Part shown: piece by piece, positions 27,827 through 37,629 of the stretch
Layout: each line of letters opens with the position of its first letter
Numbering within the stretch: the first letter of the stretch is position 1
Assembly (NCBI RefSeq): GCF_029167645.1
Contig: NZ_CP119147.1
Span: 1,302,001-1,366,000, forward strand
From: Streptomyces sp. AM 2-1-1
GTDB taxonomy: Bacteria > Actinomycetota > Actinomycetes > Streptomycetales > Streptomycetaceae
DNA: 64,000 nucleotides
Direction: 5' to 3'
The notes under the pieces: model-generated
Told to the model about the DNA's origin: nothing
Database searches by the model: none
The model's input: the letters and a program-made list of their open reading frames with translations, nothing else
Translations under genes and position numbers: made by a program

Positions 27827-30668
<2,842 letters not shown>

Positions 30669-30794: not shown

Positions 30795-31544
30795 TCATGC
30801 GGTGGGCTTCACGGCCATCAGCAGGTACTCGTGCGAGCGGTTCGACAGCATCGGATCGTCGCCGCCCGCCGGCCGCTCGTAGAGGTGGATGCGCTCGTCG
30901 CCCAGCGTCAGATGGCGGCCGAGCACGCGTGAGGCGTCCCAGGCGAGCGGCACGAAGGATCCCGCCACCCGGCGGTTCTGCACGGCGATCACCGCGTACG
31001 CGCCCGGTCGCATCACGTCGGCGATGGCGGCGAAGGTCTCGTCGAGGGCGCTCAGGTAGTCGTCGTAGTCGCGCAGCGCGTACATCTGGCCGGTCCCCGC
31101 CGCGTCGACGTCCAGGTCGGTGCCGAAGTAGGGGAGATCGCACAGGACCAGGTCCGCCGAGCCGGGGTCCAGCGGCGGTTTGCGGGCGTCCCCGCACAGC
31201 ATCCGTTGCCCGGGGTAGGGCTCCAGCCGTCGGCGGGCCTCCTCCGCACGGGACTCGTTGATCTCCAGCCCGACGCCCAGCCGGCCCTCGGCCGCGCAGG
31301 CAACCAGCGTCGTACCCCATCCGGCGAAGGGGTCGAACACCAGGTCACCGGGGTTGCTCAACTCGACGATCAACGGCCGCAACTGGCTGACCAGACCGCT
31401 CTGCCCGGCCGCCCCGGCGAGGGCGTACTCCGGGTCCTCGCCCCCCAGCACCAGCCAACTGGAAACCCCCATCAGGATCACGCAACCCTTCTGCGACGTC
31501 GCCGCCGGCGGCACGGTGCCGGGGCGGCCTTCGGAACTGGACAC
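30795..31544 (-). CDS. DNA methylase-like SAM-dependent methyltransferase
   Basis: Up to 249 residues. Shows the order of N4/N6 amino-methyltransferases: SAM motif I VFDPFAGWGTTLVACAAEG with GVGLEIN after it, then motif IV DLPYFGTD in place of the usual DPPY. The end RSHEYLLMAVKP is also common in that group. No target-recognition domain or restriction partner is nearby. Start uncertain: GTG at 31544 lacks a ribosome site, while GTG at 31481 follows AAGGG and retains the whole domain. The gene is last in the ATP-grasp operon, 39 bases after the MFS gene and before a strong terminator. It may thus tailor or protect against that pathway's product rather than methylate DNA. Confidence 0.75.
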   Translation of the reverse strand: MSSSEGRPGTVPPAATSQKGCVILMGVSSWLVLGGEDPEYALAGAAGQSGLVSQLRPLIVELSNPGDLVFDPFAGWGTTLVACAAEGRLGVGLEINESRAEEARRRLEPYPGQRMLCGDARKPPLDPGSADLVLCDLPYFGTDLDVDAAGTGQMYALRDYDDYLSALDETFAAIADVMRPGAYAVIAVQNRRVAGSFVPLAWDASRVLGRHLTLGDERIHLYERPAGGDDPMLSNRSHEYLLMAVKPTA

Positions 31545-31583
31545 ACGGAACGGGACACGTCTCGGTACGGGCCCCGGGCCGGT

Positions 31584-32834
31584 TCAGGAACCCACCGAGC
31601 GCGGTTCACCGGCCGGCTCGGTCTTCGGCCGCGGATGCACCGCCGCCTCGGGAAGGCGCCGTTCCAGGCGGAGCACGCCCAGCGCGGAACAGGTCACGCC
31701 GGCCGCGAGCAGCAGCCACATGCCGGTCGCGGACACCGACAGCAGGGCGGTCAGCACCGCCGGAGCCAGTGCGATGGGGACCGCCCAGGAGAGCTGGTAG
31801 ACCGCCAGATGACGGCCGCGGGTCGCCTCCGGGGCCGCGTGCGCCACCAGGGCGGACGCCGTGGCCCCGTGGAACAGCTCCCCCACGGTGAAGGCCAGCG
31901 TGGCGGCGAAGACACCGATGACCACGGCGGTCCCCGCCGGGAAGGCGCCCAGCACCGCGAAGGCGACGAAGGAGGCGGCGAAGACCGCCGTTCCCAGCAC
32001 CATGGCCCGCGTCCTGCGGTACGCGCCGAGCATCCGGGTGACCGGTATCTGCAGGAGCGCGATGCCCACCGTGTTCACCGCGTACAAGACCCCCACCAGG
32101 GAGTTGGGCGCGCCCAGCTCCTGGGTGAGATAGACCGGGAGGCTCACCGAGAGCACCATGTACCCGAAGGCGGTCGGCACGTTCAGCAGGGACAGGATCA
32201 GGAAGGGACGGTTGCGCGCCACCAGCCGGTAGCCGCCCTTGCGGGAGACCCGGCCGCCGGGCGGCGGGGCCGCCCGGTCGGTGGGGATCGTCCGGATGAG
32301 CGCGGCGGCCGCCAGGTAACCGACCGCCACGGAGATCACGATCAGGTGGTAGGCGGAGTCGTTGCCCAGCGCCAGCGCGGCACCCGCGACCAGTCCGCCC
32401 AGTCCCATGCCGGCGTTGCGCAGGCTGCGCTGCGCGGCGAGCAGTTTGTCCCGGTCGGTGCCGTGCACGATCTCGGCCACGAAGGACTGGATGGCCGGGG
32501 GGAAGGACATGTCTCCCAGCGCGACGGGCAGCACCACGGCGAACATGACCACCCCGTTGTCCACGAACGGGTAAGCGCAGAACCCCGCGGCGCGCAGCAC
32601 GTAGCCGGCGACGACGACGGTGCGGGCGCCGAACCGGTCGATGAGCACACCGGCGACGGGGTTGCTCACCAGGCCGATCACCGCGGCGGTGGTCATGATG
32701 ACGCCGATCCGGGTGATCGGCAGCCCGGTGACGTAGTGGAAGTACAGCAGGGAGAGCGGGAGGTACATGCCGCTGCCGGTGGCGTCGACCACCATCCCGG
32801 CCATGTACCTGACCTGGTTCGACGGCTTCTTCAC
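31584..32834 (-). CDS. MFS exporter
   Basis: 416-residue, 12-helix major facilitator. The MFS loop signature lies in NPVAGVLIDRFGARTVVVAGYV near residue 60, preceded by the helix MVVDATGSGMYLPLSLLYF. The pattern resembles drug-export type MFS proteins (MdtH/YceL-like). The GTG start overlaps the stop of the second ATP-grasp gene by four bases (GTGA), so it is translationally coupled to the biosynthetic genes. A role in exporting the ligase product and in self-protection is inferred from this coupling. Confidence 0.88.
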   Translation of the reverse strand: MKKPSNQVRYMAGMVVDATGSGMYLPLSLLYFHYVTGLPITRIGVIMTTAAVIGLVSNPVAGVLIDRFGARTVVVAGYVLRAAGFCAYPFVDNGVVMFAVVLPVALGDMSFPPAIQSFVAEIVHGTDRDKLLAAQRSLRNAGMGLGGLVAGAALALGNDSAYHLIVISVAVGYLAAAALIRTIPTDRAAPPPGGRVSRKGGYRLVARNRPFLILSLLNVPTAFGYMVLSVSLPVYLTQELGAPNSLVGVLYAVNTVGIALLQIPVTRMLGAYRRTRAMVLGTAVFAASFVAFAVLGAFPAGTAVVIGVFAATLAFTVGELFHGATASALVAHAAPEATRGRHLAVYQLSWAVPIALAPAVLTALLSVSATGMWLLLAAGVTCSALGVLRLERRLPEAAVHPRPKTEPAGEPRSVGS

Positions 32835-34105
32835 GGTGCTCCCACGATCTCCGTCTGGGCCTGTACCCGCGCGCCGAGTTCGCGCAGTCTTCGCTCGCAC
32901 TCGGCCCGGGTCGGGGCGGTGGCCACGGCCGCGGTGAGGAAGTCCGCCGATCCCGAGGCGGGGGCGATCACCTGGCCCGGCGCGGCGAAGAGCCAGAAGC
33001 CCTCCACCCAGGGGTCGTCGGGCACCTCGGGCAGCGAGCGCACCAGCCCCGGCCGCTTCATCGTCAGCACCTGACCGGACATGCACCGGGGCCGCAGCGG
33101 CGCCCGCTCGACCGCGCCGTCCTCGAAGCCGGGAAGCGGCAGACCCGCTTCCGCGCGGGTCGCGTACGCGCCGAGGTGGATGCCGAAGAGCGCCCGGAAC
33201 ACCTCCCGGATCTTCGCGCCGCCCGGCCGGCAGGCGATCTCGCACAGGACGAGCCGCCCGTCCGGCGTGTGGAAGACCTCGGCGTGGAAGGCGTGGGTCC
33301 GCAGCCGGGAGTCCTGCGGTTTCAGCGCCGCGAGCACCTGGTCGACCAGCTCCAGCAGTCGCGGGGTCAGCGGGTCGTCCGTGTCCAGCGTCAGGTCGAC
33401 GCGCGGCCCCGGATCGGCGGCGAACGAGGAGAGGTCGTACTGGTACTGGGAGGGCCAGGCCGCCACGGTCCGGCCGTCGACCACCAGCCCGTCGACGTGG
33501 CACATGCGGCCGGGAACGAACGCCTCCAGCAGCACGTCGTCACGCGGCGGTCCGGGGAACGCGCTCTCGACGCAGCTCTCCAGTTCGTCCTCGTCCCGCA
33601 GGATCCGCAGGCCGACGGAGTTCCATCCGGCCCGCTCCTTGAACACCACCGGGAAGCCGTGCACTCCGGCGAACTCGCGTGCCTCGTCGGCGGTCCGCAC
33701 CACGATCCCCGGGGCGACCTCGACGCCGGCCTGCCGCGCGAGCCGCTTCATCAGGGCCTTGTCCCGGAACGGCCGGACGTCGGCGGCCCAGGCCCCGTCG
33801 AGGCCGAGGCGCTGACGGAGCTCGGCGGCCCGGGCCACGTCCGCCTCGTGCAGGGCGACGACGTGGGTGACGCGGAACTCCTCGGCCAGCTCCAGCGCCC
33901 GGTCGATGACCGCCTCGTCGTCGAAGTCGTCGAATATCTCCAGGCGGGTGAACCCGAGCTCGTCCTCGCGGCCCTCGGGCACCTCCTCGCCGGCGAGTTC
34001 GATCTTGTCGCGGGCCGCGAGGACGACGACGTCGTCCCGGCCGGCCAGCCACTCCCCGTAGGGGAAGGGCTCGAACGGGTTGCGGTGCAGGACGAGGACG
34101 CTCAT
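32831..34105 (-). CDS. ATP-grasp ligase (second of two)
   Basis: 424-residue ATP-grasp enzyme, a carboxylate-amine ligase that activates a carboxylate as acyl phosphate. The N-terminal pre-ATP-grasp domain runs to about residue 110. The ATP-binding part has RDKALMKRLARQAGVEVAPG near 118, the Lys-containing FPVVFKERAGWNSVGLR near 155, and the Mg-binding HAEVFHTPDGRLVLCEIACRPGG near 275-297. The ATG overlaps the stop of the preceding ATP-grasp gene (ATGA), and the end overlaps the MFS start. Sequence differs clearly from the first ligase, so the two are not a recent duplication and probably perform consecutive ligations. Substrates are unknown. Confidence 0.88.
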   Translation of the reverse strand: MSVLVLHRNPFEPFPYGEWLAGRDDVVVLAARDKIELAGEEVPEGREDELGFTRLEIFDDFDDEAVIDRALELAEEFRVTHVVALHEADVARAAELRQRLGLDGAWAADVRPFRDKALMKRLARQAGVEVAPGIVVRTADEAREFAGVHGFPVVFKERAGWNSVGLRILRDEDELESCVESAFPGPPRDDVLLEAFVPGRMCHVDGLVVDGRTVAAWPSQYQYDLSSFAADPGPRVDLTLDTDDPLTPRLLELVDQVLAALKPQDSRLRTHAFHAEVFHTPDGRLVLCEIACRPGGAKIREVFRALFGIHLGAYATRAEAGLPLPGFEDGAVERAPLRPRCMSGQVLTMKRPGLVRSLPEVPDDPWVEGFWLFAAPGQVIAPASGSADFLTAAVATAPTRAECERRLRELGARVQAQTEIVGAP

Positions 34106-35403
34106 GCGGACTCCACCGTCCACTCCGTCACCGGGGCCGCTTCGGCGAGAAGCGGCCGGCCGTCGGCACCCAGCACCCGCACCTTGATCGTGTCGCGGAT
34201 GACCTCCGCCCCCCGCCGGACGGCCGCCGTCGTGTCGGGGCCCGCCACGGCCACCAGGCCGAGCCGGTCCCAGTTGTCCCGCACGGCGCGGACGTCGTCA
34301 CCGGGTTTGGCACTGATCCGTACGTCGAGCACGCCCTCCTGGCGCAGCGCCTCCGCCACGCCTTCGACGGACTCCACGCGGCCGCCGGGTTCGCCCACCA
34401 GGACCCGCACGCTCGCACCGGCGTGCGCCACGGGCCGGTCGGGCAATTCCTCGACCAGCCGGAACGGCCAGCCGAGGGCGAGGGTCATCAGGTCGATGCC
34501 GTACGCGCTGCGGACGAGTTCCGGAATGGCGTCGCCGGCGACCCGGTTGTGGCTCTCGATCACCCTCGGACCGTCCTTGCCGATCCGTATCTCGGTGTGG
34601 GAGACGCCGTCCCGGTAGCCGATCAGATCGAGGAAGCGGCCCACGCTCTGCCGTACCTGCTCCTGTGCACCGGACGGCAGCCGGGCGGGTACCGCGTGGC
34701 CCAGTTCGGCGCAGTGGGCGGGGTCGGTGAACTTCTCGGTGATCGCCGCGACGACGTGGCGGCCCGCGAAACTGAAGGCCTCCACGCTGTACTCGGGGCC
34801 GTCCAGGTACTCCTCCATCAGGAAGTCCTGGAGGATGAAGAGCGTCGAGATCCGGTCGGTCCGCGTGCCGACCAGCCGCTGTACCTCGTCCCACACCCCC
34901 TCGACGTCGGCGGGGCCGTCGACGCGGCGCACCCCGATGCTCGCGGTGGCGTCGGTCGGCTTGACGATGAACGGGTAGCCGTGGCGGCTGCCGAACGCGT
35001 CCAGGTCCGCCCGGGCGCGCAGCGGTGCGGCCTGGACCGCGTCGGGGTCGACCGCGGCGAAGTGACGGCGCATCACTCCCTTGTCCCGGAACCGCAGGGC
35101 GACCTCGTGGCCGGTGCCGCCGAGACCGAACAGGTCGTTGATGGACGCGGCCGCTTCGAGTCCCGGCTCGGTCAGCGAGAGCGCGGCGGCGAACCCGGGG
35201 ACCTCGTGCAGTTCGCGGGCGATGGGCTCCACGGCGTCCCACCGCGTGAAGTCCACGACGCGGACGAGGTCGACGAGGCGCTCCTGCTCCGGGGTGATTT
35301 TAGTGGGGTGCTGGAGCAGCAGGACGTGCAGGCCGAGTGCCTCGGCCTTGATCAGGGTCTCGTCGGTGGCGCCGACGAGCAGCAGTGTGCGCTCGGGGTT
35401 CAT
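34102..35403 (-). CDS. ATP-grasp ligase (first of two)
   Basis: 433-residue ATP-grasp protein resembling L-amino-acid ligases and biotin carboxylase-like enzymes. The N-terminal domain (MNPERTLLLVGATDETLIKAEALG) is followed by LRFRDKGVMRRHF near 107, GYPFIVKPTDATASIGVRRV near 145 and the Glu/Asn Mg site HTEIRIGKDGPRVIESHNRVAGD near 270-292. A C-terminal extension of some 100 residues is present. Starts by ATGA overlap with the serine acetyltransferase-like gene and ends by ATGA overlap with the second ligase. The likely job is joining an amino acid made by the upstream PLP enzyme to another carboxylate or amine; inferred from context. Confidence 0.88.
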   Translation of the reverse strand: MNPERTLLLVGATDETLIKAEALGLHVLLLQHPTKITPEQERLVDLVRVVDFTRWDAVEPIARELHEVPGFAAALSLTEPGLEAAASINDLFGLGGTGHEVALRFRDKGVMRRHFAAVDPDAVQAAPLRARADLDAFGSRHGYPFIVKPTDATASIGVRRVDGPADVEGVWDEVQRLVGTRTDRISTLFILQDFLMEEYLDGPEYSVEAFSFAGRHVVAAITEKFTDPAHCAELGHAVPARLPSGAQEQVRQSVGRFLDLIGYRDGVSHTEIRIGKDGPRVIESHNRVAGDAIPELVRSAYGIDLMTLALGWPFRLVEELPDRPVAHAGASVRVLVGEPGGRVESVEGVAEALRQEGVLDVRISAKPGDDVRAVRDNWDRLGLVAVAGPDTTAAVRRGAEVIRDTIKVRVLGADGRPLLAEAAPVTEWTVESA

Positions 35404-35999
35404 CGGTCCGTTCCGTTCTCGGGGGTGGGCGTCGGGGGGTGCGTGACGGTGGAGGTCCGGGCCCCCGACATCCGTACGTGTGCCCCCTTGGGTACGTCGT
35501 CCAGGACGAGGGACATCGCACCGATCAGGGCGTCGTCACCTATGGTGATCGGGCCCAGCAGGGTGGCCCCGGCGCCCACCGTCACGCCGTTGCCGAGCCG
35601 CGGGTGCCGTCTGGCGTCGCCCGCCGGGTGTCGCTCGCGCTCCTGCCACCAGCCGGTGGAGCCGATCGTGACCTGGTGGAACAGGGAGACGTCGTCGCCG
35701 ATGACGGCGGTCTCGCCGATCACGACGCCGCAGCCGTGGTCGATGAAGAACCGCCGGCCGATCTGCGCGCCCGGGTGGATGTCGACACCGCCGGTGAGCG
35801 CCTTGGTCACCAGGGAGACGATCCGTGCCGAACGGTGATGACGGTGCCGGTACAGGTAGTTGCCCGCACGGTGCCCGGCCAGCGACATCAGGGTGGGGTG
35901 GAGCAGCGCCTCGCTCCGGGAACGGATGGAGGGATCGCGGGCGACGACGACGTCCAGCGTCTCCCGCAACCGCCGGCGCACTCCTCGTCCGCCGCTCAT
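35400..35999 (-). CDS. Serine O-acetyltransferase-like hexapeptide-repeat enzyme
   Basis: 199 residues. The short helical N-terminus is followed by a left-handed beta-helix of hexapeptide repeats: GVDIHPGAQIGRRFFIDHGCGVVIGETAVIGDDVSLFHQVTIG (about residues 70-112) and the second block RLGNGVTVGAGATLLGPITIGDDALIGAMSLV. These match CysE, including the catalytic His in DHG. It would acetylate serine to O-acetyl-L-serine for the PLP enzyme encoded just upstream, with which it shares an ATGA overlap. The N-terminal CysE domain is shorter than in E. coli CysE (273 residues), as in many short actinobacterial versions. A dedicated copy in the operon suggests supply for a special pathway. Confidence 0.88.
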   Translation of the reverse strand: MSGGRGVRRRLRETLDVVVARDPSIRSRSEALLHPTLMSLAGHRAGNYLYRHRHHRSARIVSLVTKALTGGVDIHPGAQIGRRFFIDHGCGVVIGETAVIGDDVSLFHQVTIGSTGWWQERERHPAGDARRHPRLGNGVTVGAGATLLGPITIGDDALIGAMSLVLDDVPKGAHVRMSGARTSTVTHPPTPTPENGTDR

Positions 36000-36949
36000 C
36001 CGGCCGGCTCGGCCTCGGTGGGCCACCAGCTGAGGTAGCGCTCGCCGGTGTCGGGGAAGACGGTCACGACGGTGGCGCCCGACAGGTCGTGGCGACGGGC
36101 CAGTTCGACGCAGCCGTGTGCCGCGGCGCCCGAGGAGACGCCGACGAGCAGGCCGCTGGTGGTGGCGATGGCCCGTGTCGCGGCCGCCGCGTCCTTGTCG
36201 GAGACAGCGATCACCTCGTCGATGAGGGTGGTGTCGGTGACGGGGCTGATGAAGCCGCCGTTGAGTCCGGGTATGCGGTGCGGACCGGGCGGGCCGCCCG
36301 ACAGCAGCGCGGAGCCCTCCGGTTCGACGGCGACGACGTGGAGGTCCGGGTTGCGCTCGCGCAGGAAGCGGGCGATGCCGGTGAGGGTGCCGCCGGTGCC
36401 CACCGTGCAGACGAGGTGGTCGACGCGGCCGCCGGTGTCCCGCCAGATCTCGGGTCCGGTGGACTCGTAGTGGGCCCGCACGTTGTCGGGGTTCTCGTGC
36501 TGGCGCGCGTACCAGGAGTCCGGTGTCCGCGCGTGCAGCTGTTCGGCCCGCTCCACACATCCGGCGAAGCCCAGGGTGTGGTCGGTGAACTCGACTTCGG
36601 CCCCCAGCATCCGCAGCGTCAGGACACGTTCGCGGGAGGCGTTGTCGGGCAGCACGATCCGGCACGGGTAGCCGCGCACGGTGGCCAGCGAAGCGAGCGC
36701 GATCCCGGTGTTGCCCGACGTCGACTCGATGACGGTCGCGCCGGGACGCAGTGCACCGGACTTCTCGGCAGCCCTCATCATGAAGAGGGCGGCCCGGTCC
36801 TTGATGCTGGAGAGGGGGTTGGCCGCCTCCAGCTTGGCCAGTACCCGCGTGGCGGCGGGCAGCCCGTCGAGGCGGAGCTTCAGCAGCGGGGTGTCGCCGA
36901 TGAGGTCCTCGGACGAGTCGGCGACGTTGACGGCGATCGGGTTCGCCAC
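35996..36949 (-). CDS. Cysteine synthase-like PLP-dependent beta-substitution enzyme
   Basis: 317-residue fold-type II PLP enzyme. The PLP lysine is K50 in NPLSSIKDR, the substrate loop is ESTSGNTGIALA near 75, and the phosphate cup is GTGGTLTG near 175. KDR rather than KCR after the lysine makes it closer to CysM/CBS-type than to CysK. It replaces the acetyl group of O-acetylserine with a nucleophile, sulfide in cysteine synthesis or another in specialised metabolism (beta-substituted alanines). GTG at 36949 has GGAGGAACC immediately upstream; the longer frame reads into tandem repeats and was rejected. First gene of the coupled operon. Clustering with ATP-grasp ligases argues against simple cysteine synthesis. 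Confidence 0.88.
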   Translation of the reverse strand: MANPIAVNVADSSEDLIGDTPLLKLRLDGLPAATRVLAKLEAANPLSSIKDRAALFMMRAAEKSGALRPGATVIESTSGNTGIALASLATVRGYPCRIVLPDNASRERVLTLRMLGAEVEFTDHTLGFAGCVERAEQLHARTPDSWYARQHENPDNVRAHYESTGPEIWRDTGGRVDHLVCTVGTGGTLTGIARFLRERNPDLHVVAVEPEGSALLSGGPPGPHRIPGLNGGFISPVTDTTLIDEVIAVSDKDAAAATRAIATTSGLLVGVSSGAAAHGCVELARRHDLSGATVVTVFPDTGERYLSWWPTEAEPAG

Positions 36950-37036
36950 GGTTCCTCCGGGTCGGTTCGGGGCGACGTGGATCAGCGGGTGTCGTGCACG
37001 GGCTGTCCCGCGATGCGTGGTGGATCGGTGCGCTGC

Positions 37037-37131
37037 GTCACATGCGGTGCGCCGCGTCACATGCGGTGCGCCGCGTCACATGCGGTGCGCCGCGTCACAT
37101 GCGGTGCGCCGCGTCACATGCGGTGCGCCGC
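37037..37131. repeat. Five perfect 19-bp tandem repeats
   Basis: Unit GTCACATGCGGTGCGCCGC occurs five times without a single change or spacer (starts 37037, 37056, 37075, 37094, 37113), with a decayed partial copy before it. The array is 88-182 bases upstream of the PLP enzyme start. The 19-base period is close to two DNA turns, so bound proteins would sit on one face; iteron-like binding or a variable-number repeat are both possible. Confidence 0.92.
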
Positions 37132-37629
37132 GCGGTGAAGGGGCGTCCGGGCGCGGGACGTGCGGGGGCGCTGCGACGACGCGGCGAGGGCCTTTGGCCG
37201 ACGCCGCGCATCCACCGGGAAGTGCGGGACGGCGCGTACGGGTGCCACATGGTCCTCGGACAAGGGGGACAGGCCCCCGTTCCCCTTGCCGGCGGCCGGC
37301 CAAAAGCCGTGCTCGCGGCTGACGGGGGATTCCCGGCGGGCTGCGAGGGCCACGCGGCGCGGCCGCATCACGGGCACTTCGTTCTTTCGCTCGGGAGGGT
37401 TGAATTTCGCTTGCTTTCCGATCCGGTCCCGCGGCTCCCGGGAAAGCGGATCGCCGGTGACATCACGTCGTGCCCACGGACCTTCCCCGGTCATTTCTGA
37501 TGCCGGTTCTCTTTCCAGCATGTTTCGGCCCTCCCCCCGATGCACCACTCCGCGGATTGTGCCGGGCGATCCCGCGACTCCGCCATGACGTCCATGCCTC
37601 GGGTCACCGCACTGCACACTTTCCAGGGG

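Follow-up and report, generated by a model that had tools for sequence, protein, structure and literature searches.

Work on the indigoidine synthetase IdgS led its authors to conclude that the thioesterase (TE) domain offloads and cyclises the loaded glutamine to 3-aminopiperidine-2,6-dione, which is then dehydrogenated (PMC10989907, available text). In the minimycin enzyme MinA, a tautomerase domain was reported to convert the oxidised ring to a tautomer that MinB accepts for formation of a C-glycosidic bond, the other fate of the ring being indigoidine (PMC8724604, available text). Here we describe a gene cluster at 30.8–41.9 kb of a 64,000-nucleotide stretch from Streptomyces sp. AM 2-1-1 (contig NZ_CP119147.1, positions 1,302,001 to 1,366,000; hereafter the window, whose own numbering is used), in which a nonribosomal peptide synthetase (NRPS) gene and a tautomerase gene lie beside genes for a serine O-acetyltransferase (SAT), a pyridoxal phosphate (PLP) enzyme, two ATP-grasp ligases (AG1 and AG2), a major facilitator superfamily (MFS) exporter and a methyltransferase (MT). 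The plant beta-substituted alanine synthases of the mimosine and willardiine type are CysK-family enzymes that add a heterocycle to O-acetylserine, the bond being made through a ring nitrogen. In Streptomyces, the D-cycloserine cluster (DcsD/DcsE) has a CysK-like enzyme for a non-cysteine beta-substituted alanine; we know of no NRPS, tautomerase or amino-acid ligase pair in that cluster. It is well supported that the NRPS, tautomerase, SAT and PLP enzyme of the window form one pathway and are its informative unit, and the product of the whole cluster is probably a small exported peptide containing a new amino acid.

Gene content of the cluster

The original prediction for this region described a five-gene operon followed by a methylase gene. 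Its range (30795..36949) ends too early: the conserved cluster also takes in a divergent NRPS and tautomerase and extends to 41939, and the operon flagged earlier is half of it. The five genes lie on the minus strand (36949–31584) as had been described, in the order PLP, SAT, AG1, AG2 and MFS, with four-base ATGA overlaps at PLP/SAT, SAT/AG1 and AG1/AG2 and a GTGA overlap at AG2/MFS. The divergent gap between the PLP and NRPS genes is 890 bases (Table 1).

The NRPS matched the Pfam families AMP-binding, PP-binding and Thioesterase, with the carrier motif GGNS at residue 973 and the TE motif GYSFG at residue 1103; its oxidation (Ox) region, which had no Pfam match, was identified from its length, its position and its likeness to relatives. 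This architecture of adenylation (A), Ox, thiolation (T) and TE domains is that of indigoidine synthetase and of MinA. The A-domain code read DAWQFGVIN, and no more than one or two of its nine positions differed across the 71 aligned NRPS rows (mapped by eye). With the code positions and the glutamine meaning of DAWQFGVIN being what we take them to be, the A domain appears glutamine-like in all 71 rows.

The PLP enzyme scored above the cut-off of the CysK/CysM subfamily (TIGR01136, 349.8 vs 344.15) and below those of the CysK equivalog (TIGR01139, 336 vs 350.95 bits) and the CysM equivalog; the earlier label of CysM-like thus holds for the subfamily and fails for both equivalogs. The closest solved relatives by sequence are cysteine synthases, and the alignment shows that the catalytic lysine and the TSGNTG loop are retained. 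SAT passed the EpsC cut-off (NF041874, 154.5 vs 150) and fell below the CysE cut-off (TIGR01172, 165 vs 210.65), which was passed in none of 61 sampled genomes of the genus; what had been called CysE-like is here called EpsC type. It was the only strong TIGR01172 match in its own genome (161 bits; the next had 38), and a strong SAT match was found in 15 of the 61 genus genomes. The other 46 showed no strong match, and any O-acetylserine made there has no obvious source.

AG1 matched ATP-grasp_4 and LAL_C2, and AG2 matched CPSase_L_D2 and LAL_C2, all above cut-off, which bears out the claim of two ATP-grasp ligases; the closest solved relatives of both by sequence are L-amino acid ligases. The small-peptide idea for the operon is reasonable. 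The earlier proposal, that a small peptide containing a beta-substituted alanine is made and exported, fits the LAL_C2 matches and the conserved neighbours; it overlooked the NRPS/tautomerase half, from which a specific ring could come as the nucleophile. That the two ligases join the alanine twice may be supposed, the two-ligase route to phosphonoalamide tripeptides being a precedent. AG1 relatives in Microbispora and Sphaerisporangium (P0141, P0162–P0165 and others) are fused to a hexapeptide serine O-acetyltransferase, a fusion that ties the ligase to O-acetylserine supply.

Conservation and linkage across genomes

A species-genome scan with the AG2 alignment was followed for the best 80 of 333 relatives; the neighbourhood counts are for the 43 near-relative loci (L009–L051), the 37 loci with distant AG2 proteins (L052–L088, 26–36% identity) being left out. 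The original prediction had called for a genome search for the ligase pair with the PLP and SAT genes, and that pairing recurred: by tblastn, with short contigs counting as misses, AG1 accompanied AG2 in 41 of the 43 loci, a PLP relative lay within 8 kb of AG2 in 37, and MFS was present in 35, SAT in 23 and MT in 20. The count for SAT is a point on which the original prediction needs correction. The genera included Streptomyces, Actinacidiphila, Microbispora, Sphaerisporangium, Micromonospora, Amycolatopsis and Actinokineospora. The flanks fetched for the 43 loci contained the NRPS in 16 cases; of the remaining 27, whole-genome searches covered 14 and found it in 11. Contigs were compared in five of these 11: in two (L009 and L019) the NRPS was on a contig equal in size to that of the operon, about 10 kb past an added ATP-grasp gene; in three (L022, L023 and L032) it was on a different contig from the operon.

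Linkage was measured in 297 Streptomycetaceae genomes, with thresholds of E<1e-100 for the Ox-NRPS (two fragments with weaker E-values, in G189 and G143, are omitted), E<=1e-15 for SAT and at least 45% identity for AG2 relatives. The Ox-NRPS was found in 53 genomes, SAT in 48 and an AG2 relative in 20. NRPS and SAT occurred together in 18 genomes (Fisher p 3e-4), within 5 kb of each other in 15 and within 20 kb in 17, where about 0.02 would be expected for the 5-kb distance. For NRPS and AG2, co-occurrence was seen in 12 genomes (p 1.4e-5), 11 of them with the two no more than 20 kb apart. Eight of the 15 genomes with adjacent NRPS and SAT had no AG2 relative of at least 45% identity; three of these gave no ATP-grasp matches and five (L139–L143) had distant ATP-grasps.

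In all, 78 NRPS loci (76 distinct) were collected: 34 (32 distinct) had a PLP gene in the piece, 40 were without PLP, SAT or ATP-grasp genes there, and the remaining four had ATP-grasps in the piece and continued into PLP clusters. The tautomerase was present in 25 of the 32 distinct NRPS+PLP loci vs 14 of the 40 NRPS-alone loci, and four of those 14 (L163–L166) came from genomes with the operon elsewhere. In L163, L165 and L166, which come from the genomes of L022 and L023, the NRPS-tautomerase pairs had no SAT or PLP gene in the piece, and the operon is on a different contig; the operon functions are possibly supplied in trans.

The NRPS tree had 71 rows, seven of the 78 loci having been left out (five because the matched stretch contains an in-frame stop, two because they are short); L145 and L161, whose PLP genes are in the neighbouring piece, were labelled PLP-linked. 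One branch (SH-aLRT 98, quick search) separated 37 rows, 30 of them PLP-linked, from 34 rows with four PLP-linked. The PLP label changed seven times on the tree vs a mean of 24.1 for shuffled labels, and none of 500 shuffles was as low.

Minimal clusters and the control set

Four clusters (L136 in G024, L137 in G098, L138 in G082 and L144, the second NRPS of G279) consisted of NRPS, tautomerase, EamA exporter, SAT and PLP genes, and four ATP-grasp queries gave no match in any of them. EamA was identified by domain scan in L136, L138 and L144 and read from the printed frame in L137; these proteins match a carboxylate/amino acid/amine transporter model, below its cut-off. A cupin gene follows the PLP gene in L136 and L138 (by scan) and in L144 (by letters), and an MFS gene is likewise present in all three. 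The L137 tautomerase forms part of the NRPS through an in-frame fusion, an arrangement shared with MinA. The other scanned neighbours were LuxR-type regulators, glycosidases, a phosphoesterase, and luciferase-like, PhzF-like, acyl-CoA dehydrogenase and acyltransferase proteins. No ligase was found among the neighbours scanned, which were part of the total, and two of the L137 neighbours had no Pfam family. On the simplest reading, the PLP enzyme is where the ring and O-acetylserine come together, the ligases being an addition in clusters that turn the amino acid into a peptide.

Two solved cysteine synthases have Q-F and GIGAGF at positions that we take to lie in the active site; the window's PLP enzyme reads Q-H and GLNGGF there. 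Q-H with GxxGGF was found in 62 of 67 aligned PLP rows (GxNGGF in 61); the remaining five rows are the pair of housekeeping enzymes, a distant protein and two proteins that read Q-D. The control set comprised 33 further regions, 31 around SATs with no nearby NRPS and two around AG2 relatives. A PLP relative of at least 50% identity was present in 15 of them, 13 with the same histidine, one with Q-D and one CysK-like (L234). The notion that these residues prove the nucleophile was ruled out by their presence in the 13 PLP enzymes of NRPS-less regions; the residues therefore mark an amino-acid-making subfamily and not this particular nucleophile. The control set supports a modular view of the SAT-PLP pair and lowers confidence in the ring as the nucleophile.

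The PLP tree had 73 rows: seven of the 67 were left out (the duplicates L212 and L213, the NRPS-linked L210 and L211, and three distant or Q-D proteins) and 13 of 18 control rows were used. Rows labelled as having no NRPS have none in the flank, and several of those genomes carry one elsewhere. The 71 cluster rows formed one branch (97, long) apart from the genome's own cystathionine beta-synthase (CBS) and CysK/CysM-type protein.

Nine genomes (L219 and L221–L228) share a cluster of SAT, PLP, two cupins, an EamA exporter and an asparagine-synthase-like (AsnB) protein, the domain scans covering L219 and L221; an AfsR-like regulator was also recognised by eye. Here the SAT-PLP module apparently carries a different nucleophile maker, and in the PLP tree the AsnB-type rows, nine in all, form a single nested clade. 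Beside this cluster, L221 has a PrpF-like isomerase and a further gene that matches the ATP-grasp type weakly. In L153 (G152), the neighbours of a SAT-PLP-AG2-MFS set include TauD, an HpcH/HpaI aldolase and an asparagine-synthase-like protein, along with another PLP enzyme whose loop reads SSGSTG. In L032, from Micromonospora, an adenylosuccinate-lyase-type protein, a flavoprotein and an AMP-ligase, which presumably resemble the aspartate-nitrosuccinate nitrite pathway, flank the operon and a tautomerase. Like-sized relatives of the flavoprotein and the AMP-ligase are found in L047, which, like L034, is also from Micromonospora.

Proposed pathway and alternatives

Gene content, family membership and conserved linkage are the observed basis for reading these genes as one cluster, and we infer every reaction that follows. 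The NRPS would load L-glutamine, cyclise it and oxidise it to the aminopyridinedione half of indigoidine, as its domains and code suggest and as reported for IdgS and MinA (PMC10989907, PMC8724604, available texts). The tautomerase would yield a nucleophilic tautomer, averting dimerisation of the ring to the blue pigment, a role reported for the Tau domain of MinA. SAT would make O-acetylserine, which the PLP enzyme would convert to aminoacrylate, adding the ring to the beta-carbon to give a heteroaryl-alanine (C8H11N3O4, calculated as ~213 Da). The bond would be made via a ring carbon, as in minimycin C-glycosylation, which we prefer, or via nitrogen. AG1 and AG2 would then attach one or two amino acids and the MFS protein would export the product; more speculatively, MT may N-methylate the exocyclic amine of the nucleobase-like ring or protect a nucleic-acid target.

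The central step, that the PLP enzyme joins the NRPS-made ring to the serine-derived carbon to give a new heteroaryl-alanine, is the explanation that we favour over the alternatives below, although our judgement on it is evenly balanced. The narrower suggestion that the ring is C-linked, the CysK-family enzyme forming a C-C bond between an indigoidine-type ring and aminoacrylate, is tentative, and we lean towards doubting it.

Several results weigh against the joining of ring and serine carbon. To our knowledge CysK-family enzymes do not usually form C-C bonds. The same PLP subfamily adjoins SAT where there is no NRPS, and the 13 PLP enzymes from NRPS-less regions that share the distinguishing residues include nine in the AsnB/cupin cluster type. 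In the PLP tree, enzymes with and without a linked NRPS are intermixed, the NRPS label changing 12 times, and four of the 34 PLP-linked NRPSs are on the other side of the NRPS tree. Fourteen stand-alone NRPSs also have a tautomerase. The Ox-NRPS was absent from eight of the 20 AG2-bearing genomes of the family and from 30 of the 48 genomes with SAT; no NRPS was found in the whole genomes of L039, L041 and L046, the last of which was also without SAT and without a neighbouring PLP gene. SAT was missing from the piece in eight of the 32 distinct NRPS+PLP loci (L010–L014, L017, L018 and L021), including most close relatives of the window, and two of these genomes (G276, which is L010, and G043, which is L013) had no SAT genome-wide at E<=1e-15, which leaves such loci with no evident serine donor.

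The strongest alternative is that two building blocks are made in parallel, the ring and a separate beta-substituted alanine whose nucleophile comes from primary metabolism, and that the ATP-grasp enzymes join them through the amino group of the ring. Clusters of SAT, PLP and ATP-grasp genes in genomes that have no NRPS speak for this: of the eight AG2 genomes without the NRPS, six (G129, G152, G236, G243, G274 and G294) have SAT and PLP beside AG2, and L039 and L041 are further cases. The identity of the PLP residues with and without an NRPS and the variation of the extra ATP-grasps among clusters also point this way. The minimal clusters L136, L137, L138 and L144, however, hold ring, SAT and PLP genes where neither an ATP-grasp match nor, among the part of the neighbours that was scanned, a ligase was found. 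We consider parallel building blocks rather unlikely.

A poorer alternative is that SAT and the PLP enzyme merely supply extra cysteine, for a thiol peptide made by the ligases or for sulfur-linked addition to the ring. The pairing of CysK with SAT for cysteine synthesis is textbook knowledge, and the catalytic lysine, the TSGNTG loop and the subfamily score of the PLP enzyme are as this would predict. The genome, however, also encodes a CBS and a separate CysK/CysM-subfamily protein, both over cut-off. The strain thus has candidate cysteine synthases besides the PLP enzyme, and the refuting outcome named in the original prediction, that this enzyme would be the sole one, did not arise. Because of these two proteins, and because a strong SAT occurs in so few of the genus genomes, SAT and the PLP enzyme are read as accessory, and a housekeeping cysteine synthase reading is weakened on the same grounds. 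Further, the cluster PLP enzymes differ from the two solved cysteine synthases at two active-site stretches and branch apart, and no sulfur-supply gene is among the annotated cluster genes. Extra cysteine supply is an unlikely role. Finally, that an indigoidine pigment gene lies by chance beside an unrelated peptide operon, as the commonness of stand-alone NRPSs (40 of the 78 loci) and the divergent transcription of the two halves might suggest, is highly improbable and was rejected on the NRPS-SAT linkage (15 of 18 genomes within 5 kb), the tautomerase/PLP locus counts, the recurrence in four actinobacterial families and the largely separate NRPS branch.

Methyltransferase and cluster boundaries

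The original prediction placed a DNA-methylase-like gene 39 bases past the MFS stop. The frame does open there, but a methionine at residue 25 is conserved in 15 of 16 aligned rows (MT and 15 relatives), with most of the similarity beginning at that point, so the start is probably the ATG at 31472 and the gap about 111 bases. MT is no standard beta-class DNA methylase: such enzymes have DPPY before the motif that binds S-adenosylmethionine (SAM), whereas MT has the permuted order, DPFAGWGTT (motif I) ahead of DLPY, and for that reason PF01555 covers only its last quarter. A sequence search of the PDB returned mostly DNA methyltransferases, matched at motif I alone, and m2G10 tRNA methyltransferases that span both motifs weakly (E 0.002). 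In Foldseek the predicted model (mean pLDDT 72) gave Archaeoglobus Trm11 as its first four matches (TM ~0.5), with many other Rossmann methyltransferases close behind, and the phage "DNA methyltransferase" family phrog_498 matches residues 58–192, including both motifs. Methylation of the exocyclic amine of a nucleobase-like ring is attractive but unproven; MT may alternatively serve in RNA or DNA protection, and in view of the phage family DNA may still be its substrate.

Table 1. Features of the cluster and its edges, in window coordinates
Feature	Position	Strand	Basis or remark
Inverted repeat, 22-bp perfect, 4-nt loop	30689..30736		read from printed letters
MT, SAM methyltransferase, 225 aa from conserved Met	30795..31472	-	frame open to 31544; fold nearest Trm11
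MFS exporter, 416 aa	31584..32834	-	PF07690
AG2, ATP-grasp, L-amino-acid-ligase type, 424 aa	32831..34105	-	domain and sequence matches
AG1, ATP-grasp, L-amino-acid-ligase type, 433 aa	34102..35403	-	domain and sequence matches
SAT, serine O-acetyltransferase, EpsC type	35400..35999	-	NCBIfam scores
PLP, fold-type-II enzyme, CysK/CysM subfamily	35996..36949	-	domain, NCBIfam, alignment, tree
19-bp tandem repeat, 5.6 near-perfect copies	37026..37132		divergent intergenic region
NRPS, indigoidine/minimycin-type, single module A-Ox-T-TE, 1295 aa	37840..41727	+	domains, relatives, A-domain code
Tautomerase, 4-oxalocrotonate type, 74 aa	41715..41939	+	start overlaps NRPS end

The inverted repeat lies between convergent genes, MT and 28014–30668. 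It had been called a terminator; the repeat is perfect as described, but a T-run is absent and the terminator scan gave no entry there. The 19-bp tandem repeat was considered as a regulator array and rejected, no 12-mer being repeated more than two times in the matching stretch of 12 relatives. By eye, with no scan, the left neighbour of the cluster is secreted-glycosidase-like, and the right side of the window (42045–63879), outside the conserved cluster, holds a 2-oxo-acid dehydrogenase operon and then a large type I polyketide synthase region.

Significance and comparison with known systems

A cluster of this composition did not appear among the matches listed in searches of open-access literature; subscription papers, MIBiG and antiSMASH were outside the search, so absence from print is not implied. 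Under the C-linked reading, SAT-PLP would be a plug-in amino-acid module in which the makers of the nucleophile are swapped (NRPS with tautomerase, AsnB with cupins, and others), and the finishers would be swapped too, between EamA export of the free amino acid and ATP-grasp peptides. If the proposed pathway is right, it connects the NRPS chemistry of indigoidine and minimycin with beta-substituted alanine synthases of the plant kind and with peptide pathways that use ATP-grasp ligases. Many actinobacteria would then be expected to make redox-active amino acids and peptides that resemble nucleobases, a CysK-type enzyme would have a new use in forming C-C or C-N bonds, and the tautomerase genes adjacent to 14 of the 40 stand-alone "indigoidine" NRPSs would have a possible function. 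If the bond is C-C, the logic of C-nucleoside antibiotics would be applied to amino acid synthesis.

Compared with the plant beta-substituted alanine synthases, the heterocycle here would come from an NRPS encoded beside the PLP gene. The indigoidine synthetase IdgS is likewise a single-module A, Ox, T, TE enzyme, and acts on glutamine (PMC10989907, available text), as is predicted for the window's NRPS, whereas 26 of the 40 stand-alone relatives are without a tautomerase and the PLP-linked NRPSs are a largely separate branch. The phosphonoalamide pathway (PnaA–D) takes a beta-substituted alanine to tripeptides through two ATP-grasp ligases, much as is proposed here, but its phosphonoalanine comes from a transaminase (PMC11867202, available text), where beta-substitution of O-acetylserine by the PLP enzyme is expected here; no phosphonate family is among the annotated cluster genes. 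Minimycin offers another likeness: its cluster (minA–D, minT) likewise pairs an A-Ox-T-TE NRPS with a tautomerase and includes a transporter, the NRPS acting on glutamine and the pair giving a nucleophilic ring tautomer (PMC8724604, available text), as is predicted for the window. The genes at 30.8–41.9 kb belong to Pfam families other than those of MinB and MinC, for which no aimed genome search was made. The tautomerase is a domain of MinA in minimycin, a separate gene in the window and fused to the NRPS in L137; and where minimycin synthesis has the C-glycosynthase MinB to add ribose and MinC for remodelling (PMC8724604, available text), the present cluster has SAT, the PLP enzyme and the ATP-grasp ligases instead.

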